Origin: Tepidanaerobacter syntrophicus
GTDB lineage: Bacteria; Bacillota; Thermosediminibacteria; Thermosediminibacterales; Tepidanaerobacteraceae
Length of the DNA: 64,000 nt
Assembly (NCBI RefSeq): GCF_001485475.2
Contig: NZ_DF977003.1
Coordinates: forward strand, 434,001-498,000
Direction: 5' to 3'
The translations under genes and the position numbers were made by a program. Below the pieces are notes generated by a model. The model saw only the letters and a program-made list of their open reading frames with translations, made no database searches and was not told the DNA's origin. Within the stretch, counting starts at the first letter, position 1. Each line of letters begins with the position of its first letter. Shown piece by piece: positions 2,461-25,675 of the stretch.

Positions 2461-3774
2461 TTAATTTACAGCCTCGCCGATTAAACACCAGGTATGTGAC
2501 TCGGTAATTTTTACATCAGCAAGGTGACCGATTAATTCTTTTGGGCCGACAAAATTTACTAATTTATTTGTTCTCGTCCGGCCGGAGAGTTTTTGAGCAT
2601 CGTTTTTGCTCTCTCCCTCAACTAGAACTTCTTGAACAGTTCCAACTAATTCATTGTTTTTCCGCTTCGTTATGGAATCTTGCAGTTCCATAAGCCTTTT
2701 TAGACGCTCCTTCTTTATTTCATCATCTATCTGATCTTCCATTTGAGCTGCAGGGGTTCCGATTCTTTTTGAATATATAAAAGTAAAAGCAGAATCAAAT
2801 TCTATGGTTTTCACCAGATCTAGTGTATCTAAAAAATCTTCTTCAGTTTCTCCCGGAAAACCTACTATTATATCAGTGGTAATAGAAATATTCGGAATGG
2901 CATCCTTTAATTTATTTACTAATTCTATATAATGTTCTCGTGAATAATGCCTATTCATTTTTTTTAGAATTCGACTGCTTCCCGACTGAACCGGTAAATG
3001 AATATGTTCGCATACTTTTTCGCATTCTTTCATTGCAAGTACTAGTTCATCAGACAGATCTTTTGGATGAGATGTTATAAACCTTATTCGCTCGATACCT
3101 TCTATTTCGTTTATCTTTCTTAAAAGTTCCGGGAAATCAAAAGGCTTATCTAAATTTTTACCATATGAATTTACATTCTGCCCCAAAAGATTAATTTCCA
3201 TAAATCCTTCATCGGCAAGCGTTTTTACTTCCCTTAGAATATCCTCCGGCAGGCGGCTTACTTCTCTTCCTCTTACGTATGGTACTACGCAATAAGTACA
3301 ATAGTTATTGCAGCCATAAGTAATTGGCACCCATGCTTTAATCGAGCTTGTGTGCTTTACTTCAAGGTTCTCAGCAAGATCAGAATTACCGGCCAAAGCA
3401 GCCGTTATTGAATCAATTCGCCTGCATTCCTCTATAAGCTCTGGCAGCTTATTAACATTTTTAATGCTAAAAAGAATATCTACATAAGGAAGCTTTTTTG
3501 AAATATATTCTACCACATGAGGTTGTTGAACCATGCATCCTGAGATTGCAATAGTAAAGTTAGGATTTCGCTGCTTAAAGTATTTAAGTTGGGCAATTCT
3601 GCCATAAACTTTTCTTTCGGCATTTTCTCGAATGCAGCAGGTGTTTAGTACAACAACATCTGTGTCTTTAAGCGTTTCTGACGGCTCATAGCCTGCTTTT
3701 TCTAGCACTCCTGCTATAACTTCACTATCATGTATATTCATTTGACATCCATAAGTAAATATTTTGTACTTCAT
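2461..3774 (-). CDS. miaB: tRNA-2-methylthio-N6-dimethylallyladenosine synthase
   Basis: Radical-SAM methylthiotransferase acting on i6A37 made by MiaA, encoded directly downstream. The N-terminal UPF0004 domain carries three cluster cysteines (YGCQMN, NTCCIREN, SGCMVQQP), and the radical-SAM motif CNNYCTYC is near residue 155. A TRAM domain ends the protein (GRTRTNKLVNF region). The start ATG 3774 has AAGGAAG 8 nt upstream; a GTG three codons earlier (3783) overlaps that site and is less likely. The 437-residue length is normal. miaB, miaA and hfq appear to share a transcript with the upstream uracil-DNA glycosylase gene. Confidence 0.96.
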   Translation of the reverse strand: MKYKIFTYGCQMNIHDSEVIAGVLEKAGYEPSETLKDTDVVVLNTCCIRENAERKVYGRIAQLKYFKQRNPNFTIAISGCMVQQPHVVEYISKKLPYVDILFSIKNVNKLPELIEECRRIDSITAALAGNSDLAENLEVKHTSSIKAWVPITYGCNNYCTYCVVPYVRGREVSRLPEDILREVKTLADEGFMEINLLGQNVNSYGKNLDKPFDFPELLRKINEIEGIERIRFITSHPKDLSDELVLAMKECEKVCEHIHLPVQSGSSRILKKMNRHYSREHYIELVNKLKDAIPNISITTDIIVGFPGETEEDFLDTLDLVKTIEFDSAFTFIYSKRIGTPAAQMEDQIDDEIKKERLKRLMELQDSITKRKNNELVGTVQEVLVEGESKNDAQKLSGRTRTNKLVNFVGPKELIGHLADVKITESHTWCLIGEAVN

Positions 3775-3814
3775 AAATACCACTTCCTTGCTTTACCCTT
3801 ACTGCAAAAATAGT

Positions 3815-4579
3815 TTATGGGTCCGCGTAATTATATTCAGGACAAAGTTCCTTTGCTTTTTCCAAGGCTTTATTAAAGTCGCTCCAGACCAACCATTTAA
3901 CCTGAGTTAAAGCCTTACCGCCTTGCCTTAAAATGTATGCCGGGTGAAAGGTAGGCATAATCCAATAATCCCTTACATTTATCCACTGTCCCCGCTCCTT
4001 CATTATGCTGCTTCCGGGTTTAAAATAGTTAAAAGGCACGGCACCTAGTGCGATTATTACCTTGGGCTTGATTATAGATAATTCCAATTCTAATATATGA
4101 GAACATGCTTTAATCTCCTTTTGCAGCGGAGTCCTGTTTTGAGGAGGGCGACATTTTATTACATTTGTTATATAGACTTTTTCTCTGCTTACATTCAATT
4201 TGTCTAAAATAGTTGTAAGCAGCTTACCTGCTTTTCCTACAAAAGGACGTCCTTCTTTATCTTCATCAAAGCCCGGACCTTCGCCGATTAAAACTAAAGG
4301 GGAATTAAGGGCTCCTTCACCGGGCACTTTTTGAGTATGGGTTTCTAAGGTGCAGAGCATACAATTATTGCACTTATTTGTATACTCTATCAGTCTTTTA
4401 TATAAGTAATCCCTCTCTTTGACAGCTTGGTCATTATCGAGTCTTAATGTGCGAAGAATGTCATCAGTATTAGTTTCATTTAAATTAAATTCCATCTTTA
4501 AATCTAAAAGCAGTTTTACTATTTCCGGAAGCTTTATTTCATCAGCAGCAAGTGTCTTTTTTATTTCATTTTCAAGCAC
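3815..4579 (-). CDS. Family 4 (Fe-S) uracil-DNA glycosylase
   Basis: Removes uracil from DNA, as produced by cytosine deamination. The active-site motif GEGPGFDEDKEGRPFVG is at about residues 99-115, the second motif with catalytic-region His is HPAYILR (H212), and the 4Fe-4S ligands fit C70, C73, C143 and C159. This assigns it to the thermostable family 4 rather than Ung. At 254 residues it is longer than the usual 190-210; the extra lies in an N-terminal helical extension of about 55 residues with no motif I recognise. GTG start preceded by AGAGGG. It is the first gene after the promoter at 4624-4652. Confidence 0.9.
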   Translation of the reverse strand: MLENEIKKTLAADEIKLPEIVKLLLDLKMEFNLNETNTDDILRTLRLDNDQAVKERDYLYKRLIEYTNKCNNCMLCTLETHTQKVPGEGALNSPLVLIGEGPGFDEDKEGRPFVGKAGKLLTTILDKLNVSREKVYITNVIKCRPPQNRTPLQKEIKACSHILELELSIIKPKVIIALGAVPFNYFKPGSSIMKERGQWINVRDYWIMPTFHPAYILRQGGKALTQVKWLVWSDFNKALEKAKELCPEYNYADP

Positions 4580-4615
4580 AGCCTTGTCCCTCTTTGTAAA
4601 CTGATTTTAAATTGC

Positions 4616-4652
4616 TATGGTATATTATACCATATGGCGGTGTTTAAGTGAA
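4616..4652 (-). promoter_or_regulatory. Promoter for udg-miaB-miaA-hfq with palindromic -10 region
   Basis: Minus-strand -10 TATAAT (4629-4624) and -35 TTCACT (4652-4647) separated by exactly 17 nt. The -10 box also carries TG one base upstream (extended -10). It lies inside a 9+1+9 palindrome (4616-4634, TATGGTATA and its complement), which could be an operator or chance symmetry around an AT-rich box. Confidence 0.65.
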
Positions 4653-4689
4653 CCGCTTAAAGATATTCACTAGTTCATATTAAACCACT

Positions 4690-4728
4690 AAAAGCGGCTT
4701 GAAAGTTGGAAAATTCAAAGCCGCTTTT
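4690..4728 (-). terminator. Terminator of the decarboxylase operon
   Basis: Perfect 11-bp stem (4690-4700 and 4718-4728, AAAAGCGGCTT and its complement), 17-nt loop, about 20 bp after the oadA stop. The stem begins in A and ends in T on both strands, so it could also act bidirectionally. Confidence 0.7.
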
Positions 4729-4749
4729 GTTATAAAATAATATGCTACT

Positions 4750-6144
4750 TCATACAGGATATACGTCAAATTTATCTTTTTGAACTAGGTTACTGTCAAT
4801 TTTATATTTTTTGGCTTGACGCTCTTGAAAAAACTTAAGGGCAATTTGCGGGAATAATGCATATGTCAAAACATCTTCTTCTTGCTCCATATAATAGGAA
4901 ATTTCTTTGCGGTATTTATCTAAAGCCGGTTCTAACAAGTCTGCAGGTCGGCACTCAATTACTTCTTCATCTCCTATTATTTTCTTCTTTATTTCTTCTT
5001 TTATTGGTGCCGGCGGTCTGCCGTAAAGCCCTTTTACGTAATTTTTAACTTCATTTATAACTACTTTGTAACGTTCCCCGGTAATAACATTGACAACTGC
5101 TTGCGTGCCAACTATTTGGCTTGTAGGTGTGACTAGCGGAGGATAGCCCAAATCTTCCCTTACACGCGGTACCTCTTTTAGCACTTCAGGAAGTTTATCT
5201 AAAGCATTTTGTTCCTTTAATTGGCTGGTTAAATTAGAAAGCATACCGCCCGGTATTTGATAATTGAGCACCATTGTATCCACCATTGTTATAATGCTGT
5301 CGATTTTATAATGGCTTCTAACTTCTTTAAAATAATCCGAAATACTGGAAATATACTCTAGATCAAGCTTTGTATCGTAGGGTGTGTTTCTCAACACTGC
5401 TATCATGGTTTCCGTTGGGGGTTGGGATGTGCCAAGAGCAAATGGCGATAAAGCCGTATCTATTATATCTACTCCGGCTTCGATAGCCTTGAGATAACTC
5501 ATAGAAGCCATGCCGCTGGTATAATGGCTGTGAAGTTGAATTGGGACACTTACTTCCTTTTTTAGCTTGGAAACCAGCTCATAAGCATCATATGGAGCCA
5601 AAAGGCCTGCCATGTCTTTAATACATATGGAGTCAACGCCTAATTTTTCTAACTCCTTTGCCATGCTTACATAATACTCATTATTGTGAACAGGACTTAT
5701 AGTATAAACAACTGTTCCCTGAGCGTGTGCCCCCACTCGCTTAGTTACCTCAATTGATTTTTCTAAGTTTCGTATATCATTTAATGCGTCAAATATACGA
5801 ATGATATTTATACCATTTTCAACTGATTTTTTTATAAATAACTCTACAACATCATCAGGGTAATGATGATAACCTAAAAGGTTTTGACCTCTAAGAAGCA
5901 TCTGCAGTGGGGTATTCTTGATGGCCTTTCTCAATTTTCGAAGCCTATCCCATGGATCTTCGTTTAAAAAGCGAATACATGTATCAAAGGTAGCTCCGCC
6001 CCACATTTCAAGAGAATAATAACCAACTTTATCAAGCTTTTCAGCTACCGGCAGCATCTCGTCTGTTTTCATTCTAGTTGCTACAAGGGATTGATGAGCA
6101 TCTCTTAAGATGGTGTCGGTTATTCTAACTTGCTTTTGCTGCAA
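4750..6144 (-). CDS. oadA: Oxaloacetate decarboxylase / transcarboxylase 5S-type carboxyltransferase subunit
   Basis: 464-residue biotin-dependent carboxyltransferase that moves CO2 between oxaloacetate/pyruvate and carboxybiotin. The TIM-barrel domain has the family motif RDAHQSLVATR; metal ligands fit D15, K176 (carbamylated lysine, CIKDMAG) and H205/H207 (LHSHYTSG). A PYC/OADA conserved domain follows (residues about 300-460). There is no C-terminal biotin domain, so the separate carrier encoded at 7362-7754 must serve it. TTG start behind AAAGGGG with 7 nt spacing. It is the last gene of the methylmalonyl-CoA operon. The same chain would be called pyruvate carboxylase subunit B or transcarboxylase 5S; sequence alone does not decide the physiological direction. 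Confidence 0.9.
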   Translation of the reverse strand: MQQKQVRITDTILRDAHQSLVATRMKTDEMLPVAEKLDKVGYYSLEMWGGATFDTCIRFLNEDPWDRLRKLRKAIKNTPLQMLLRGQNLLGYHHYPDDVVELFIKKSVENGINIIRIFDALNDIRNLEKSIEVTKRVGAHAQGTVVYTISPVHNNEYYVSMAKELEKLGVDSICIKDMAGLLAPYDAYELVSKLKKEVSVPIQLHSHYTSGMASMSYLKAIEAGVDIIDTALSPFALGTSQPPTETMIAVLRNTPYDTKLDLEYISSISDYFKEVRSHYKIDSIITMVDTMVLNYQIPGGMLSNLTSQLKEQNALDKLPEVLKEVPRVREDLGYPPLVTPTSQIVGTQAVVNVITGERYKVVINEVKNYVKGLYGRPPAPIKEEIKKKIIGDEEVIECRPADLLEPALDKYRKEISYYMEQEEDVLTYALFPQIALKFFQERQAKKYKIDSNLVQKDKFDVYPV

Positions 6145-6213: not shown

Positions 6214-7338
6214 TTATCCACCATATAATGAAAGCAGTATTCCTGCGGCAATTGCAGTTCCTATAACTCCTGCCACATTCGGTCCCATAGCATGCATCAA
6301 AATAAAATTACCGGGTTTTTCTTCTTGAGCCACAACCTGAGATACTCTAGCCGCCATAGGCACAGCTGAAACTCCGGCGGAGCCAATCAAAGGATTTACT
6401 TTTCCACCTGAAAAAATGTACATAAGCTTTCCGAAAAGGATACCCGCTGCAGTTCCTACTGCAAAAGCGGCAAGTCCGAGTAATAATATTTTGATAGTTT
6501 CCCATCTGAGAAAATTTTCGGCGTTTGCTGTAGCGCCTACAGTCACACCTAAAAATATTGTAACAATATTTATAAGTTCATTTTGCGTGGTCTTTGACAA
6601 TCTATCGACTACGCCACACTCTCTAAAAAGATTACCTAACATTAAGCAGCCGATAAGCGCTGCAGCGCTTGGAACCAAAAAGCCGGCAAGTATTGTAACT
6701 ACTATTGGGAACACGATTTTTTCAATTTTAGATACAGGTCTTAACTGTTCCATAGTAACTTCCCGCTCTTTCTTTGTGGTAAGGGCGCGCATAATAGGCG
6801 GCTGGATTATAGGCACGAGAGCCATATAGGAGTAAGCGGATATTGCTACAGCTCCAAGGAGATGAGGAGCAAGCTTACTTGTAAGAAATATAGCTGTAGG
6901 ACCATCTGCTCCACCTATTATTCCTATGGAAGCAGCCTCTTTAAAATTAAAGCCCAAAAGCGCGGCACCTAAAAAGCTCGTAAAAACGCCGAACTGGGCA
7001 GCAGCTCCAAGCAGCAGACTTTGGGGATATGCTATAAGCGGGCCGAAGTCTGTCATAGCACCTACTCCCATAAATATTAGCGGCGGATATATATCAAGTT
7101 CCACCCCTCTATAAATCCAATAAAGAAAGTTGCCTTTTGCCATAAGATTTGCCTGAGGGATATTGGCAAGCAGCATTCCAAAGCTTATCGGCACTAGAAG
7201 AAGCGGCTCATATTTTTTTCCTATGGCGAGATAGAGCAAAAAACATGCTATCCCTATCATTATGGCTTGCTGAAAGGTTAGGTTTGCATAGCCGGTTCCG
7301 GCAAAAAAATTTATTGCTTTATCAAGCACATCCATCAC
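6214..7338 (-). CDS. oadB: Sodium-translocating decarboxylase beta subunit
   Basis: Integral membrane subunit (374 residues, many hydrophobic segments) of Na+-pumping decarboxylases (OadB/MmdB/GcdB). It decarboxylates carboxybiotin and exports Na+. Family landmarks are present: [17 protein letters not shown] with the key Asp (around residue 140), [14 protein letters not shown], and [16 protein letters not shown] followed by [12 protein letters not shown]. Encoded between the biotin carrier and oadA. Whether its partner is MmdA, OadA or both is discussed in the findings. Confidence 0.93.
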
Positions 7339-7361
7339 TCCATTGATGCTAATTTTGTGTT

Positions 7362-7754
7362 TTATTCAAAAGTTGCAAGTAGATCACCGGTATTTACTGA
7401 TGAGCCTTCCACTACGTCAATGGAGACTACTGTACCATCTTCCGGAGCCAGGATTTCATTTTCCATTTTCATGGCTTCAAGCACCATAACTACATCACCT
7501 TTTTTTATCACATCACCGGGTTTTTTCTTAATAGATAGGATGGTGCCTGGCATTGGAGCCACTATTTTTTGTGCGCCTGAGGCTTTTGAAGAAGCGGGCT
7601 TGGCTTTAGGTTTAGCTGTTTCTTGAGATATTTGTGCTGTATTAATAGATTCTTGCTTTTTGTTTCCTAGCTCATCTTGAACATTTTTTACGCCCACTTC
7701 CTCGACTTCAACTTCGTAAGTCTTTCCTTCGACAGTTATCTTATATTTTTTCAT
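7362..7754 (-). CDS. Biotin carboxyl carrier (gamma) subunit
   Basis: 130-residue carrier protein. The C-terminal half is a biotinyl domain with EAMKMEN; K96 is the biotinylated lysine. A Pro/Ala/Lys-rich linker (residues about 45-62) precedes it, and an N-terminal segment ([20 protein letters not shown]) matches that of MmdC/1.3S transcarboxylase carriers. It is the only biotin carrier in the window, so it should shuttle CO2 for both carboxyltransferases. Its start overlaps the end of the delta subunit by 4 nt (translational coupling). Confidence 0.93.
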
Positions 7755-8179
7755 TTGCAGATTTCTCCTTTCTTTATGTCATGGACTATGTGGCTTCTTG
7801 TGTTCTCGATTCGAGAAGTTACAGCCCATACTGGGGATTTTTGATGAATCTGGCGTATTGAATTTACCTTAAGGTTTATGGTGGAAGTTTCCAAATAAGC
7901 AGCAACTGCAGCAGTAATTATTGCGATAAGCTCGGAATCATCTTGCAGATTCTCAGATTGTGTTTTGCCATTAATAACTTCATCGACAAAATTCTCCTCT
8001 TTTACCTCGGCAGATGCTTCTATCTGAGAAATTTTTGCCCTTTTTAAACTTGCTGCAGGGTAAAAAACTATCCTCGAAAGCTGTAAAATAATCGATAATA
8101 CATAGAGCGTAAGTATTACAAGGCCCATGCCGAATAGCGTGGTTTTTAAAGATTCAGTAATTATTTGTAAAGTCGTCAT
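7751..8179 (-). CDS. OadG-family small membrane (delta) subunit
   Basis: 142-residue protein with one N-terminal transmembrane helix (residues about 12-36, GMGLVILTLYVLSIILQ) and a soluble C-terminal tail containing LIAIITAAVAAYLE, which is characteristic of OadG/MmdD subunits that tie the carboxyltransferase to the beta subunit. Preceded by GGAGG and 12 nt from mmdA. The hydrophilic middle is variable. Function is assigned from the hallmark segment and from context. Confidence 0.85.
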   Translation of the reverse strand: MTTLQIITESLKTTLFGMGLVILTLYVLSIILQLSRIVFYPAASLKRAKISQIEASAEVKEENFVDEVINGKTQSENLQDDSELIAIITAAVAAYLETSTINLKVNSIRQIHQKSPVWAVTSRIENTRSHIVHDIKKGEICK

Positions 8180-8191
8180 GGTTATGCCTCC

Positions 8192-9745
8192 TTATACAGG
8201 AATATTGCCGTGTTTTTTGGCCGGCCTTGTCTCAGCTTTTGATATTAGCATTTCTAGAGCTGATATAAGTTTTGTTCTGGTTGCAGCAGGAGCTATTACA
8301 TCATCTACATAACCCCGAGATGCAGCTTGGAATGGATTTGCAAAGTTATTCCTATATTCTTCTATTTTCTGATTCCTTGTTTCAATGGGATCATCAGAGC
8401 TTTCAATTTCTTTTTTAAATATTATATTTGCAGCTCCGTCAGGACCCATTACTGCTATTTCGGCAGTAGGCCATGCAAACACTTGATCTGCTCCAAGATG
8501 TCTGGAACACATAGCTATATACGCACCGCCATAAGCCTTTCTGGTGATAACAGTAAGCTTTGGAACAGAGGCTTCTGAATATGCATATAAAAGTTTTGCC
8601 CCATGCCTTATAATTCCTCCTTGTTCTTGGGCAACGCCAGGAAGATAGCCGGGAGTATCAGTAAAAGTAATGAGGGGTATATTAAATGCATCACAAAAAC
8701 GAATAAACCTCGAAGCTTTATCTGATGCATCTATATCAAGGCATCCAGCAAGATAGCGAGGCTGATTTGCAATAATCCCCACACTGTGGCCTGCAAGCCT
8801 TGCAAAACATGTTACGATGTTTTGAGCATACATCGGCTGAACTTCAAGAAACTCTTGATCATCAACTATATGTCTTATTATATCCTTGATGTCGTAAGGC
8901 TTATTTGGATCTATCGGTATTATATCGTTTAATTCTGGCACCATCCGCGTTGAAGGATCATCTGTTTTCTTATAAGGAGGATCCTCTAGATTGTTGGAAG
9001 GTATGTATGATAGAAGTTTTTTTATTTGTTCAAAGCATTCCTCTTCACTACTGCTTATAAAGTGTGCGACGCCGCTTTTTTGGCTGTGAGCCGCAGCACC
9101 TCCCAATTCTTCATCACTTACTTCTTCTCCTGTTACTGCCTTTATTACCTGGGGGCCCGTTATAAACATTTTGCTTATACCTGAAACCATAAACACAAAG
9201 TCTGTAAGGGCGGGAGAATATACGGCGCCGCCTGCACATGGACCTAATATTACGGAAAGCTGAGGTATAACGCCTGAAGACATAGTGTTTCGGTAAAAGA
9301 TCTCCCCAAATCCCTTTAACGCATCTACACCTTCCTGAATCCTTGCACCTCCGGAATCGTTAAGACCGATAAAGGGTGCCCCTGTCTTTTGAGCCATATC
9401 CATTACTTTGCAAATCTTTGCCGCATGCATTTCTCCAAGGGATCCGCCCATTGTTGTAAAGTCCTGAGCAAATACAAAAACCAATCGTCCGTCAATTGTT
9501 CCGTAGCCTGTGACAACACCTTCTGCAGGAACTTTAGTATTTTGCATGCCGAATTGAATAGAGCGGTGTTCAACAAATGCATCAATTTCGACAAAACTGT
9601 CTTTGTCTAAAAGTTTCTCTATTCTTTCTCTTGCAGTAAGCTTACCGCTTTCATGCTGTTTTTGTATGCGTTTTTCCCCACCACCTGCTTCTATTTCTTT
9701 TCGTTTTTGCTCAAGCGCCTTGATTTTTGCTTCAATGTTTTCCAT
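8192..9745 (-). CDS. mmdA: Methylmalonyl-CoA decarboxylase / carboxyltransferase alpha subunit
   Basis: 517-residue acyl-CoA carboxyltransferase with two crotonase-like halves. It transfers the carboxyl group of (S)-methylmalonyl-CoA to biotin, giving propionyl-CoA (or the reverse). Conserved patches are GGSLGEMHAAK, NDSGGARIQEGVD, GPCAGGAVYSPALTDF, TPGYLPGVAQEQGGIIRHGAK and RKAYGGAYIAM. Flanked by methylmalonyl-CoA epimerase upstream and by carrier and pump subunits downstream, which favours MmdA over propionyl-CoA carboxylase. No biotin carboxylase gene is present in the window. Confidence 0.94.
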   Translation of the reverse strand: MENIEAKIKALEQKRKEIEAGGGEKRIQKQHESGKLTARERIEKLLDKDSFVEIDAFVEHRSIQFGMQNTKVPAEGVVTGYGTIDGRLVFVFAQDFTTMGGSLGEMHAAKICKVMDMAQKTGAPFIGLNDSGGARIQEGVDALKGFGEIFYRNTMSSGVIPQLSVILGPCAGGAVYSPALTDFVFMVSGISKMFITGPQVIKAVTGEEVSDEELGGAAAHSQKSGVAHFISSSEEECFEQIKKLLSYIPSNNLEDPPYKKTDDPSTRMVPELNDIIPIDPNKPYDIKDIIRHIVDDQEFLEVQPMYAQNIVTCFARLAGHSVGIIANQPRYLAGCLDIDASDKASRFIRFCDAFNIPLITFTDTPGYLPGVAQEQGGIIRHGAKLLYAYSEASVPKLTVITRKAYGGAYIAMCSRHLGADQVFAWPTAEIAVMGPDGAANIIFKKEIESSDDPIETRNQKIEEYRNNFANPFQAASRGYVDDVIAPAATRTKLISALEMLISKAETRPAKKHGNIPV

Positions 9746-19497: not shown

Positions 19498-21036
19498 TTA
19501 TTTTGCATATTCTGTAACTCGAGTTTCTCGTATTACATTTACCTTAATCTGACCCGGATATTCTAACTCATCTTCGACTTTTTTAGCAATATTCCGCGCA
19601 ATTTCTAAAACGCCTAAATCATCTACATCTTCAGGCTTAACCATAATTCGAATTTCTCGTCCCGCTTGAATTGCATAAGATTTTTCCACACCTGCAAAAG
19701 AATTCGCTATTTCTTCAAGCTTTTCCAAACGCTTTATATAAGCTTCCAAAGTTTCTCTTCTTGCTCCGGGTCTTGCAGCGGATATAGCGTCTGCCGCTTG
19801 AACTAATATAGCCTCAACAGTTTCCGGCTCCACATCGCTATGATGTGCTGCTATAGCATTTATTACTTCTTTAGATTCTCCGTATTTTTTAGCAAGCTCA
19901 GCTCCAAGCAAGGCGTGAGGACCTTCTGTTTCCTGATCTACGCTTTTTCCTATGTCATGCAAGAGACCTGCGCGCTTTGTAAGTTTTACATCCACGCCTA
20001 ACTCTGCAGCCATAGCGCCGGCAAGATGTGCAACCTCTATAGAGTGATGGAGCACATTTTGACCGTAACTTGTTCTGTAGTATAGTTTTCCAAGGTATTT
20101 TATAAGATCGCTGTGAAGACCGTGAACGCCGGTATCAAATGTGGCCTTTTCGCCCTCTTCACGTATGGTATTTTCCACTTCTTTCTGGGCCTTTTCAACC
20201 ATTTCTTCAATCCTTGCAGGATGGATCCTTCCGTCTAAAATCAGTTTTTCTAAGGCAATTTTGGCTACTTGTCGTCTAATAGGATCAAATCCGGAAAGGA
20301 TAACTGCTTCAGGAGTATCATCAATAATAAGGTCTACACCGGTAAGAGTTTCTAATGCTCTAATATTCCTGCCTTCTCTGCCGATGATTCTCCCCTTCAT
20401 TTCATCACTTGGCAATGCAACTACAGATACCGTTGTTTCTGCAACTTGATCTACTGCACATTTTTGTATGGCATATGAAATAATTTCTTTTGCGCGCTTC
20501 TGCGCCTCTTCCTTTGCCTGAGCTTCAATTTCCTTAATCATTATAGCTGCATCATGACGAACCTCGTCTTTTACCTTATTGAGCAAAAATTCTTTTGCTT
20601 CTTCGGTGGTCATAGATGAAATCCGTTCAAGCTCAGCAATTTGCTTCATATATAATTCATTGACCTTTTCATGAAGCTGATTAATTTCAGCTTGCTTTTT
20701 GACGACTAATTCTTCCTTTTTTTCTATTGATTCCATTTTTTTGTCGAGAGATTCTTCTTTTTGAATTAATCGTCTTTCTGAGCGCTGCAATTCGTTTCTT
20801 CTGTCGCGCAGCTCCCTTTCGGCATCGTTTTTAAGTTTTAATATTTCTTCTTTTGCCTCTACAAGAGCTTCACGTTTAATAGATTCGGCTTTAATTTCTG
20901 CATCTTCCAAGATTTTCTTAGCCGATTCTTCTGCGGACTTTATCTTTGCTTCAGCAATATATTTTCTAATAAAATATCCCAAAGCCAAAGCTACAAATCC
21001 AATAACAAGAGTTGCTAGTACATTTATGCTGCCGAT
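19498..21036 (-). CDS. rny: Ribonuclease Y (apparent AUC start codon)
   Basis: Membrane-anchored endoribonuclease initiating mRNA decay. It has an N-terminal transmembrane helix, long coiled coil (residues about 30-190), KH domain ([15 protein letters not shown]), HD domain ([10 protein letters not shown] ... LLHDIGK) and C-terminal YAK. The standard start codons in frame begin at TTGs (20994, 20988), which would cut the membrane helix in half and have no ribosome site. In the same frame, ATC at 21036 lies 9 nt after AGGAGGTG and gives [19 protein letters not shown] as the helix and a 512-residue protein (Bacillus: 520). I therefore place the start there; AUA three codons later is the alternative, or a base error. 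Confidence 0.9.
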
Positions 21037-21244: not shown

Positions 21245-21928
21245 TCAAAGCTTGTTTTGCTCTTTTTCATCCACTAATGTTACATCGCTGATTCCGTTTT
21301 TCAGCTCAACTTTGTATGCCGCATCCGCAATTTCGCTCAAATAGTTATTATGTGTAACCATGATTATCTGGCGATGAAAAATATCGCTTATTTGCTTTAA
21401 AAATTGTGCTACATTTGCTATATATTCGCTGCTTACATGTTTAGCTGGCTCGTCTAAGATTAATGGTCCGTTTTTATATGCATTAGTGCTTTGTATTACC
21501 GCTATTCTGAGAGCAAGTGATATAACATCAACTACTCCGCCGCCTCGAGCATCTTGAGGTTTTGTTTTAACTTTAAAATTATCGTAATCAGAAATTACAT
21601 AAAATTCAGCATTCGTCTTATTCGCGGCCTCGGAAAGTTCAATCTGGAACTCGATATTTGGGCCAAAAACAAACTGTAGACAGTGAGTGACAAGCATTTC
21701 TATTTGCTGCTTTATTTGTTCTCTGGCATATTCGGATGCCCTTTGAAGTAAAAACTTTACTTGTTCTAAAACATCCATTAATTCTCTTATTTCTTCAAGC
21801 TCATTTTCCTTGGCTGACAAATCATTTTCCAGTTTCTCTTTTATACTCTTTTTAACATTAAACTCTATGAGCAACTGCTGTGTTTCTTTCTCGATATCAT
21901 TTATAGTCCTATCCAAATCTTCAAGCAT
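21245..21928 (-). CDS. C-terminal half of a split SbcC/Rad50-like ATPase
   Basis: 227 residues. An N-terminal coiled coil (about 1-75) leads into the C-terminal lobe of an SMC-type ABC ATPase: signature region ARGGGVVDVISLALRIA (127-143), Walker B PLILDE (155-160), D-loop AKHV and H-loop VTHN (H193). There is no Walker A; that is in the 480-residue protein encoded at 22197. Its start follows the stop of the 80-residue ORF in a TAAAATG arrangement. Together with the Mre11-like nuclease it should form a DNA end-processing complex, by analogy with SbcCD/Mre11-Rad50. Confidence 0.8.
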   Translation of the reverse strand: MLEDLDRTINDIEKETQQLLIEFNVKKSIKEKLENDLSAKENELEEIRELMDVLEQVKFLLQRASEYAREQIKQQIEMLVTHCLQFVFGPNIEFQIELSEAANKTNAEFYVISDYDNFKVKTKPQDARGGGVVDVISLALRIAVIQSTNAYKNGPLILDEPAKHVSSEYIANVAQFLKQISDIFHRQIIMVTHNNYLSEIADAAYKVELKNGISDVTLVDEKEQNKL

Positions 21929-21929
21929 T

Positions 21930-22172
21930 TTATGCCTCCAGGTCTTTCGGCAAAAGCTCCTTTGCTTTTTTTAATAAATCCTCTATCTCTTTGCTTGCCT
22001 TTTCGATTTCTTTATCAAGCTCTTCAGGCTTTACGTTTAGTTTTTCTAACTCATCCAAAATAAGTTGTCTTTGTTTCTGCAGCTCTTCTAAACGCACCTC
22101 TGCTTTGTATCTCATAGCTTTAGCTTTGTCTATTTTTTGTTTTAGTTCGTGAATTTCTTTTTCTGCATCCAT
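21930..22172 (-). CDS. Small coiled-coil protein between the two ATPase halves
   Basis: 80 residues, almost entirely charged heptad-like helix (KEIHELKQKIDKAKAMRY, then KPEEL break and EKASKEIEDLLKKAKELL). Preceded by GAGGTG and translationally coupled to both neighbours. It has no motif of its own. Its position suggests that it supplies a segment of the returning coiled-coil arm or bridges the two halves of the ATPase. The function is inferred only from place and composition. Confidence 0.65.
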   Translation of the reverse strand: MDAEKEIHELKQKIDKAKAMRYKAEVRLEELQKQRQLILDELEKLNVKPEELDKEIEKASKEIEDLLKKAKELLPKDLEA

Positions 22173-22196
22173 ATCTTCACCTCATATAATTTAAAG

Positions 22197-23639
22197 TTAA
22201 TTGAGGATATCCGAAACGATCTTTTTGACAGTCTCCTTATCTATAGGCTGAAGGCACAAAGGACATATAGCAGCTTCTTGCAAAATTTGACTATATTTTT
22301 TTGCCATGATACTTAAAGCCTCATTGGTAGTTTTTAAATACTCATATCCCTTTCCAATAGCATCTTCCACGGATTTTTTTGAAGCCCTTAAACTTTCCAG
22401 TGCTGCAAGCCGAGCCGATTTTTCGGTGATTGTTTCCAAATAGTCCCCTGCTTTTTTTGCAGCCTCATATTTTTCAAGATCTGCTTTTTGAGAAATAATT
22501 TGGTTATTAATAGATTTTAATAGATCCAAAGTTGAAAGGAGCTTCCTTTTTGATTCAACAACTTTTTCTAACTCCGGCAAGATTTCCTCGACTTCGAAAA
22601 TATTTTCGGTTCTCTGCTTTAATCTCATCATGGCATTTAAATCATTTGTGATTTTGGCAAAACTTGTATTAAGTTTTACAAGACTGCTAAGCCTTAAAGC
22701 AAGACTTTGTGTATAAGAATAGATCTCTTCGACATTTGGAAGATTCCTCATATTTTCTATTATATGCAATTCAATTTCTTCATTCTGCCTGTTTTGTGCA
22801 AGTTTTATCGAAAGCTCTTTTAGATAGCGGCACTTTACAGACAGTGCATCTAAAAAAGTAATGTTCTGCTCTACTTTATCTATAAAATCCAACTTCTTGA
22901 TGGTATCCGTATTTTTTTCTATCTCAGAGTCAAGCTCGCCAAGCTCCTGCCTACTTTTCATTAAAATCGAAAATATAGCTCTTGTTTCCTTTAATTTTTT
23001 TAATATATCTTGGAGCGATGATATTCTTATTTGAAGCTCAACAATGTCTTTGTATGATTCCAATTGACTATTTAAGCTCTCTATATCTTTTTGAATTGAT
23101 TCAAAGTTCTGCTTGGCGTTAGTTATATCTTTTAGAACAGTTCTTTGAGCCGCATCGATTATGTGTATCCCTACAAGTCTTCCTAGCGCTTTTGCTCTAT
23201 TGCCGCCGCTTTCTGATATGAGAAAAGGAGGTTCTAACTGTTCAGCAAGATTTACAGCAGATGCCGCATCTTTGTCGATACGTATTTTCGGTATGCCGTG
23301 AGCCCTTGCTATTTCAAGAGGTACGGTATTCCCAAACCCTTCAAAAACTTCTTCTTTTCCATTTTGTATTAATATGTAACGATTCCGCTGTCCTTCCCTT
23401 TCTCGAATTATTACGGAACCGTCATCCATTTCCAGGCTAACTCGACAAAGCTTGCAACCGGCCATTATAAAATCAGTGCCTCTCGGCTCGTTATACAGAA
23501 CCCATTTTAACGCCCGGATTATAGCGCTTTTGCCCTGATCGGTTTGCCCTAATATTACCGTAAGACCTTCATCAAAGTCGATTTTGGTATCTTTATGCGA
23601 TTGAAAATTAATAAGTCTTAAGCTTTTAATCAAGCCCAA
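22197..23639 (-). CDS. N-terminal half of a split SbcC/Rad50-like ATPase
   Basis: 480 residues. It starts with the SMC/Rad50 head (SLRLINFQSHKDTKIDF, Walker A GQTDQGKS at 31-38), includes a region around KIRIDKDAASAVNLAEQLEPPF, continues as a long coiled coil (about 160-450) and ends with CPLC (C459, C462) about 18 residues from the C-terminus. CPxC is the Rad50/SbcC zinc-hook motif, so the polypeptide stops just past the apex of the hook. No Walker B is present. TTG start behind AGAGGTG, coupled to the nuclease gene. Confidence 0.82.
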   Translation of the reverse strand: MGLIKSLRLINFQSHKDTKIDFDEGLTVILGQTDQGKSAIIRALKWVLYNEPRGTDFIMAGCKLCRVSLEMDDGSVIIREREGQRNRYILIQNGKEEVFEGFGNTVPLEIARAHGIPKIRIDKDAASAVNLAEQLEPPFLISESGGNRAKALGRLVGIHIIDAAQRTVLKDITNAKQNFESIQKDIESLNSQLESYKDIVELQIRISSLQDILKKLKETRAIFSILMKSRQELGELDSEIEKNTDTIKKLDFIDKVEQNITFLDALSVKCRYLKELSIKLAQNRQNEEIELHIIENMRNLPNVEEIYSYTQSLALRLSSLVKLNTSFAKITNDLNAMMRLKQRTENIFEVEEILPELEKVVESKRKLLSTLDLLKSINNQIISQKADLEKYEAAKKAGDYLETITEKSARLAALESLRASKKSVEDAIGKGYEYLKTTNEALSIMAKKYSQILQEAAICPLCLQPIDKETVKKIVSDILN

Positions 23640-23640
23640 A

Positions 23641-24636
23641 TCAATTCACCTCTGACATATCCTCATCACCTAATTGCTCTTGGGCGTAGCCGATTCTTTT
23701 GATTGCTTCCAAAACGACTTTTTCGCTTAAATTCTCTTGCTTGGAAATTTGTTCTATTATGCGGTTGATGTCAAAAGTTTCATAACTGCCTGCAGAATGC
23801 ACGCTTTGAATGAAATCAGAGAGCTTTTTCTCTCTGAAGGCAAGGGCTTCGACTTTTGAACGGTCTAAAATTTCTTCCCCCGGCAATGCGCTTTTAAGAG
23901 GAATTTCCTCAACCTTAATCTCGTCTTCTATTGTCAAAATTACAACCTTCGGCTTCCTGGAAAGCTCACTTATGCTATTGTTAATTCTAACAAGACTGCC
24001 GGGATTTATAAAATACTTGCCGTTAATATATTTTGTAGCAAAACCGCTGTGATAATGTCCACTCAAAGTAATATCTGCTTCAGTGCCTAATATTTCGTCT
24101 ATAAGGGTATATGCAATACCTTCTATAAAAGGCTTTTCAAGAAGCATACCGTGAACCATGTGAATTGCCACATCAATTTCAGGGTCTTTTTTTATAATAT
24201 AGCTTCCCTTTTTATCATCAGAATCTATGCCATAAAAGTAGTGGCATCCGGTAAGCTGTATTTTTTTATTTTTTGATTTAAACAAAAGCTTTTCATTTGG
24301 GTTTATAAGTTTTAATGTTCCGGCCTCACTTAAAAGCCCAAGCATTGTCCGACTTAAGGTTACAGGGTTTTGCCCGTATATGTCATGATTTCCCGCTATA
24401 GCATATACAGGCAGCGAATATTTATTAATTAAGAACACAAATTCTCTTGCTAGGGAAGGTGAAATATCCGGCCGATCAAAAATATCTCCTCCGTGTAGGA
24501 TTATATCTGCATTACTTTCTTTGGCGATTTCAAAGACCTCTGTAATTTTTCGGTATAGAGTTTCTAAAAAATTATCTTTTCGATTAGGAGGATTGTTGCC
24601 GCGAATATGTGTATCTGTAAAGTACAAAATCCGCAT
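23641..24636 (-). CDS. SbcD/Mre11-like metallophosphoesterase (DNA nuclease)
   Basis: 331 residues with all phosphoesterase motifs of the Mre11/SbcD family: FTDTHIRG, GGDIFDRPD, AGNHDIYG, HMVHG and GHYHSG. The C-terminal 90 residues are divergent and may be the capping or ATPase-binding region. Start ATG 24636 overlaps the recA stop (TAAAATG). Operon order recA-nuclease-ATPase halves suggests joint SOS expression and a role in double-strand break processing. Confidence 0.85.
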   Translation of the reverse strand: MRILYFTDTHIRGNNPPNRKDNFLETLYRKITEVFEIAKESNADIILHGGDIFDRPDISPSLAREFVFLINKYSLPVYAIAGNHDIYGQNPVTLSRTMLGLLSEAGTLKLINPNEKLLFKSKNKKIQLTGCHYFYGIDSDDKKGSYIIKKDPEIDVAIHMVHGMLLEKPFIEGIAYTLIDEILGTEADITLSGHYHSGFATKYINGKYFINPGSLVRINNSISELSRKPKVVILTIEDEIKVEEIPLKSALPGEEILDRSKVEALAFREKKLSDFIQSVHSAGSYETFDINRIIEQISKQENLSEKVVLEAIKRIGYAQEQLGDEDMSEVN

Positions 24637-24637
24637 T

Positions 24638-25675
24638 TTATGCGCCTTCTTTAGGCTCTGCACCCTTATTTCCTGACTTTTCAGGTCTGACCATGTTGTA
24701 TTTTTGCCTTATTTGCAATTCCACTTCATTTAGTATTTCCGGGTGCTCCTTAAGGTACTGTTTGGCATTTTCTCTTCCTTGCCCAATTTTTTCTTTTCCG
24801 TAAGAATACCATGCACCGCTTTTTTGAATCAGCCCTTCATCTACCGCAAAATCAAGAATACATCCTTCTCTGGATATACCTTCGCCGTATATAATATCAA
24901 ATTCAGCCTGCTTAAATGGAGGCGCCACTTTGTTTTTTACCACTTTTACACGTGTTCTATTGCCTAACATATCCTCGCCTTGTTTTAAAGTTTCTATCCT
25001 CCGTACATCAAGCCGCACTGAAGCATAGAATTTAAGGGCCCTGCCTCCCGGGGTAGTTTCCGGATTTCCAAACATAACTCCTACTTTTTCTCTGAGCTGA
25101 TTAATAAATATAGCCACTGTATTAGATTTGCTGATAGCTCCTGAAAGCTTTCTTAAAGCCTGAGACATAAGGCGAGCCTGAAGACCTACATGAGCATCTC
25201 CCATTTCCCCTTCTATTTCAGCTTTAGGTACAAGAGCTGCCACTGAGTCTATGACGATAACATCTACAGCACCGCTCCTTACAAGTGTCTCTGCTATTTC
25301 AAGCGCCTGCTCTCCTGTATCGGGCTGAGAAATTAGCAGATTATCTGTATCCACTCCTAAATTTTTAGCATAGGTAGGATCCAGGGCGTGCTCCGCATCG
25401 ATAAAAGCCGCTGTGCCGCCTTCTTTTTGCGCCTCAGCGATTATGTGGAGTGCCACCGTAGTTTTACCGGAAGATTCAGGGCCGAATATCTCTATTACCC
25501 TTCCTCTGGGAACTCCGCCTATTCCTAATGCTATATCTAGCGGAAGAGCCCCGGTAGGAATGCTTTCTATATTAAACCGCGATCCTGCCTCTCCTAATTT
25601 CATTATTGAACCTTTGCCAAACTGCCTTTCAATTTGGCTTATAGCAGCCTCTAAAGCCTTATCCTTTTCGGCCAT
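24638..25675 (-). CDS. recA: Recombinase RecA
   Basis: 345-residue RecA. Walker [10 protein letters not shown] (65-73), the loops around [42 protein letters not shown], and a C-terminal domain ending in an acidic/Gly tail are present. It catalyses strand exchange and LexA self-cleavage. Preceded by GGAGG and a LexA-type box with a consensus promoter, and followed directly by the Mre11-like gene. Confidence 0.98.

Follow-up and report, generated by a model that had tools for sequence, protein, structure and literature searches.

The locus described here raises the question of whether Rad50 can exist permanently as several separate chains, or whether a Rad50 gene found in pieces is merely a broken one. 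In the window, by which we mean the whole 64,000-nucleotide stretch of Tepidanaerobacter syntrophicus DNA that was analysed, the ORF listing contains four tightly packed minus-strand ORFs in the order MRE-NH-MID-CH, flanked by recA and rny. MRE denotes the MRE11-like nuclease, NH the Rad50 N-half, MID an 80-aa third chain and CH the Rad50 C-half. The features are as follows.

24638..25675, minus strand: recA, upstream neighbour (ORF; upstream in most full cassettes)
23641..24636, minus strand: MRE, MRE11-like nuclease subunit, 331 aa (Pfam Metallophos, 1.4e-15; top PDB match Mre11 4hd0, 1.6e-9; motifs by eye)
22197..23639, minus strand: NH, 480 aa, TTG start at 23639 (PDB profile matches, AF2, phrog_16465)
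23526..23549, minus strand: Walker A GQTDQGKS, NH residues 31-38 (G31, D34, G36 and K37 invariant in alignment A2)
22320..23024, minus strand: five tandem 47-residue repeats of the NH arm (profile autocorrelation, hhalign)
22254..22265, minus strand: zinc-hook CPLC, NH residues 459-462, 18 residues before the stop (alignment A8)
21930..22172, minus strand: MID, 80 aa, helical (12-locus alignment; dN/dS; present in all 64 full cassettes)
21245..21928, minus strand: CH, 227 aa, a coil of about 60 residues and the ATPase C-lobe (PDB, phrog_15167, 40 invariant columns)
21527..21547, minus strand: ABC signature-like RGGGVVD, CH residues 128-134 (invariant columns)
21449..21463, minus strand: Walker B LILDE, CH residues 156-160, followed by PAKHVS (invariant columns)
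21350..21352, minus strand: H-loop His193 of CH, in THN (invariant)
19498..20988, minus strand: rny (RNase Y), downstream neighbour (ORF; downstream of most cassettes and of most orphan CH genes)

The natural start of MRE is the ATG at 24636, which yields 331 aa and matches the relatives, and not the GTG at 24663 that opens the longest ORF. Neighbouring genes meet as TAA-A-ATG (recA/MRE), TGA-T-TTG (MRE/NH) and, with a GGAGG, TAA-A-ATG (MID/CH). Between NH and MID, which show no stop/start overlap, lie 24 nt with a ribosome site (GAGGTGA) and another two stops in frame. An initial annotation, made from the sequence alone, had reported the ORFs, Walker A, a CPLC motif 18 residues before the NH end, an 80-aa coil and a 227-aa C-half, and all of these were found where it had put them. 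Its claim that each junction is translationally coupled held only in part, since NH/MID lacks the overlap and has a gap with its own ribosome site.

Considering the individual chains, the motifs of Mre11-type metallophosphoesterases (DxH, GD, GNHD/E, H and GHxH) are all present in MRE, where they read DTH, GGD, GNHD, HMVHG and GHYH. Against PDB profiles, NH matched the Rad50 N-lobe (3qkr, 1.8e-12) and its end (profile positions 411-479) matched the Rad50 zinc hooks 1l8d and 6zff; hook residues C459, P460 and C462 are invariant among 56 N-halves (alignment A8). CH matched the Rad50 C-lobe (3qkr_B, 5.9e-10), and the 40 invariant columns of its alignment include R128, GGG, V133 and D134 as well as L158, D159, E160, P161, K163, H164, V165 and S166 around Walker B. 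The feature set of a Rad50 C-lobe (signature, Walker B, H-loop) is present in CH with an atypical signature, which in this family takes the variant form RGGG(V/I)VD, unlike the canonical LSGGE. MID is laid out as a 42-residue helix, a conserved NVKPEEL turn and a 25-residue helix, with L10, P49, L52, I56 and P75 invariant over the 12 loci aligned. These motifs are directly observed, and a complete ATPase site was found in neither NH nor CH alone. The window proteins missed the curated SbcC cut-off (TIGR00618; 20.8 vs 478.5 bits), which only 1 of 14 control genomes passed, and the window protein likewise missed that for SbcD (TIGR00619; 35.4 vs 77.65 bits).

Structure prediction, which the initial annotation had proposed as a check, was applied to an 805-residue construct from one close relative (L076) whose three ORFs share one frame, with two stops read through; this chain is artificial and represents no natural product. 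Its AF2 model (mean pLDDT 73.7; pTM low, at 0.46) matched Rad50 and SMC proteins over both head lobes in Foldseek, where Chaetomium Mre11-Rad50 was the top hit (E 2e-20) and SMC and Rad50 heads came next. When the window NH was modelled alone (pLDDT 80.9; pTM again low, at 0.32), long helices were predicted at residues 160-194, 197-249, 251-346 and 354-456, followed by the hook.

The cassette shares with Mre11-Rad50/SbcCD an Mre11-type phosphoesterase, N- and C-lobes with Walker A, Walker B and H-loop, a CxxC hook, and a nuclease gene that adjoins the ATPase genes. It differs in the three chains of its Rad50, the RGGGVVD signature, the one-sided 47-residue repeats and scores below the curated cut-offs, and the single chain with two equal antiparallel arms is absent, the split arms being unequal and variable. 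Because it lacks the single-chain feature and fails the curated cut-offs despite the homology, we filed the system as a variant of SbcCD/Mre11-Rad50. Mre11/Rad50 fusion proteins, namely Mimivirus R555 and bacterial SbcDC fusions (PMC3175470), are also rearranged genes of the same complex, but fusion is the opposite of splitting. T4 gp46/gp47 is a phage Mre11-Rad50 pair, and gp46 is one chain whereas the split Rad50 is three. We found no account of a naturally split Rad50/SbcC in the open-access literature searched, a search that left out most subscription journals and all preprints.

The initial annotation had suggested searching relatives for the same split, and the split proved to be kept in the genus, the family, the order and other families of the phylum. 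Our locus sample comprised the best 80 of 217 encoded relatives in named genomes plus the window. Among these 81 bacterial loci, 64 carry full MRE-NH-MID-CH in that order, 14 carry CH only and 3 are partial; in every full cassette Rad50 is encoded as three ORFs, and MID is never absent. Hosts include Tepidanaerobacter, Thermosediminibacter, Alkalihalophilus, Shouchella, Tissierella, Peptoniphilus, Orenia, Caloramator and Kroppenstedtia. Within the same genus, family and order, NH relatives keep a frame open over about 480 codons. In a phylum-wide sample of 300 genomes, 48 gave a strong CH match (E below 1e-15), in nearly all of them as a separate short frame, the clear exception being a fused gene (G068). 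Median intergenic gaps across cassettes are -2.5, 3 and 2 nt. In the closest relative pair, dN/dS was 0.10 for MRE, 0.15 for NH, 0.11 for MID and 0.03 for CH, so purifying selection acts on all four genes. The placement of the cassette between recA and rny is kept across classes and is for this reason probably ancestral in them. The split and its conservation are thus shown, and we consider the three-chain Rad50 with high confidence to be a real and old arrangement in many Bacillota and some of their viruses.

Three exceptions deserve separate mention. A few relatives have an NH interrupted by a stop or frameshift (G007 C1:1572349-1573637, with an internal stop; L095, L099, L116 and L131), which could reflect sequencing error or real loss. 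One genome (G094 C1:1478266-1480543) has a second, divergent NH and short CH pair besides its main cassette, conceivably a prophage copy. In G068, a single 700-aa chain (L150, contig C6, reverse strand, 3748-5850) contains an MRE domain and both ATPase lobes, essentially without coiled coil or hook, and is followed by an AddB-like gene; judging from sequence alone, we infer that it is a coil-less Mre11-Rad50 fusion, distinct from a fused parent of the split Rad50. An intact fused gene in close relatives, which the initial annotation had named as a finding that would refute it, was not encountered, this coil-less fusion being the only single-chain relative.

Physical separation of the two halves goes further at 14 loci where CH is an orphan, mostly adjoining rny and with no NH, MID or MRE nearby. 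In 13 of these 14 genomes, of the Acetivibrio type, MRE-NH-MID is present at another locus; the fourteenth is small (1.6 Mb) and gave no strong NH match. In Pseudobacteroides, for example, CH lies near 387620 and NH at 1473931 of one contig, 1.09 Mb apart. This unlinking is directly observed, and since CH occupies a separate locus in the 13 genomes, the halves there can meet only as separate proteins. At L096, L112, L113 and L089 (near 7000-8600), the orphan CH sits directly behind folD, and ahead of rny in three of the four. rny and CH remain together in both arrangements, whereas in these four MRE-NH-MID has moved elsewhere.

Viral versions have a different gene order, NH-MID-CH-MRE with the nuclease last, in Bacillus phage vB_BboS-125 and four viral contigs; from this order we conclude that NH-MID-CH forms a unit and MRE is its partner. 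NH matches phrog_16465 (exonuclease, 4e-67) and CH phrog_15167 (ATPase, 9e-59), so phage databases already list both halves as separate, functionally unexplained families. As in the bacterial cassette, each half in vB_BboS-125 has its own gene and a MID homologue lies between the two, but MRE comes last, a further gene is present and function is unstudied. That gene (L061:5107-5679) has weak AP2 and HNH matches and lies exactly between NH and MID. It is probably a homing endonuclease, and its position may be a clue to the origin of the split. On one viral contig (L145:7565-7993), a 142-aa ORF without Pfam match lies between MID and CH.

The T. syntrophicus genome has neither SbcC nor SbcD above the cut-off. 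Among 101 relatives, canonical SbcD passed the curated cut-off in none of the 32 split genomes and in 31 of the 69 others (p=5e-7), and among the 300 phylum genomes in 1 of 48 and 112 of 252, respectively (p=6e-10), kinship being ignored in both tests. In the lone SbcD-positive genome among the 48 (G120), all that is present of the split system is a divergent C-half of 35% identity. Canonical SbcD was found in one of the 12 named-locus genomes, a set that includes Shouchella clausii and Alkalihalophilus pseudofirmus. At the family level, SbcD genomes also occur in 3 of 23 split families, with 58 families containing SbcD overall, and kinship confounds the exclusion test in part. In the named-locus set, Desulfotomaculum copahuensis (L108) has a canonical SbcD beside its split system. 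The near-exclusion itself is shown and implies functional replacement; that the split system takes the place of SbcCD in these hosts is very probable, although it is inferred from this near-exclusion and not from experiment.

We then consider the arm, for which the initial annotation had pointed out an asymmetry (about 290 residues out against about 155 back). This held, with about 300 outgoing residues in the window and 18 + 80 + about 60 returning, but it had missed that the outgoing arm is a tandem array. The asymmetry arises because the NH arm holds five tandem 47-residue repeats (residues 206-252, 253-299, 300-346, 347-393 and 394-440). The repeats are shown by profile autocorrelation of 0.97 at lag 47 and 0.83 at lag 94, when no lag between 30 and 109 rose above 0.53 in any of 2000 heptad-preserving block shuffles, and by pairwise alignment of the units in register over 45-47 columns (hhalign probability 95.6-97.3%). 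MID and the CH coil, also helical, are not copies of the unit (hhalign probability <10). Across relatives, the distance from motif to hook falls into classes of about 402 (9 proteins), 449 (58), 497 (2) and 592 residues (1), i.e. steps of 47. The longest arm seen, at 592 residues with about three extra units, belongs to D. copahuensis (L108, NH upstream of 7341), for which the NH start and unit count are less certain. The lengths of MID and CH stay constant while relatives' NH arms differ by whole repeats, so the returning chains offer no one-for-one counterpart to the units.

How the arm pairs is a matter of inference. The NH base and the CH coil both have a hydrophobic periodicity of 3.48, against 3.52 in MID and 3.36-3.40 in the repeats, a weak hint that NH base, CH coil and MID might pair together while the repeats pair elsewhere, perhaps with a second NH chain; a window of 47 residues resolves such periods poorly, and the spectrum of the array can only fall on harmonics of 47. 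Because unit starts in NH carry a capping-box pattern, a zigzag-bundle fold of the units was considered; AF2 of NH alone gives near-continuous helices instead, and the matter is not settled. In a bolder reading, which we lean against, the hook arm would be a repeat rod with its length set by unit number (4, 5, 6 or about 8), pairing mainly with the arm of a second NH and less with any returning chain, and MID and CH would form a short detachable basal clasp; as a variant, several MID copies might tile the rod. If this were true, the arm could open, lengthen or reassemble by subunit exchange, which is impossible for a single-chain Rad50.

Collectively, we regard it as highly probable that the cassette encodes a working DNA-end-processing complex of the Mre11-Rad50 (SbcDC) type, its Rad50 being made permanently as three chains, with assembly and activity inferred in the absence of any experiment. 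The three-chain end-processing complex put forward by the initial annotation is accordingly well supported as a gene architecture, while complex formation and nuclease activity remain inferred. In the proposed complex, NH would contribute the ATPase N-lobe, the helical arm and the hook cysteines, and CH the C-lobe together with a short coil closing onto the NH arm at its base, each ATP head being built in trans from NH plus CH. MID would be a third helical subunit, most likely helping to complete the arm. Two heads would engage with ATP over an MRE dimer and thereby gate the nuclease, zinc would be shared between two NH hooks (CPxC tips) as in Rad50, and MRE, by homology to Mre11-Rad50, would trim or cut DNA ends. 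Assembly, stoichiometry, nuclease and ATPase activity, ATP gating, the role of MID and arm geometry are all inferred.

Four other explanations need to be weighed. The cassette could serve anti-phage defence as an SMC-like complex (Lamassu/Wadjet-like), or be a mobile module derived from phages, instead of acting in housekeeping repair: PADLOC LmuB/AriA models weakly match the ATPase lobes, and phage copies are known. Against this speak the stable recA-rny position across Bacillota, the near-exclusion with SbcD, the Mre11-type partner, the match of the NH end to Rad50 hooks and the lack of defence neighbours in the inspected 16-29 kb stretch of the window; a full-length LmuB/JetC-type ATPase with partner genes was not found at the locus, just the weak lobe matches, and we consider this explanation highly improbable. 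Similarly improbable is that NH and CH serve different complexes (e.g. CH with another N-lobe) and share a locus for historical reasons; CH is able to leave the cassette, but 13 of the 14 orphan-CH genomes still hold MRE-NH-MID at another site, and neither lobe alone makes a complete ATPase site. Recoding by stop read-through or ribosomal frameshift could yield a single fused chain, and NH and MID are indeed in frame in the window, as they are at 18 of 70 loci. The remaining loci are spread over the other frames (26/26/18 over the three), so the chains are not joined by any one recoding event; the 24-nt gap of the window holds several in-frame stops, a Shine-Dalgarno sequence precedes each ORF and CH lies elsewhere in 13 genomes, which practically rules recoding out. 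Decay or sequencing error of an ordinary single-chain sbcC, favoured only by the extra NH breaks in a few relatives (G007, L095, L099, L116 and L131), is as good as eliminated by the recurrence of three ORFs in dozens of families, purifying selection, their own ribosome sites, the unlinked CH of 13 genomes and the failure to find a full-length fused parent among the relatives examined, in agreement with the initial annotation, which had argued against random frameshift decay.

It is generally assumed that Rad50 and SMC proteins need one chain that runs out and back for their ATPase lobes to meet. Here each lobe has a protein of its own, in some genomes encoded at a different locus, and one arm is varied in 47-residue steps. 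The split Rad50 is a natural test of the roles of continuous coil, hook and arm length in hook-to-head signalling and tethering, and its separable parts are ready-made for reconstitution. For the many Bacillota that look SbcCD-negative, it is a candidate break-processing nuclease.
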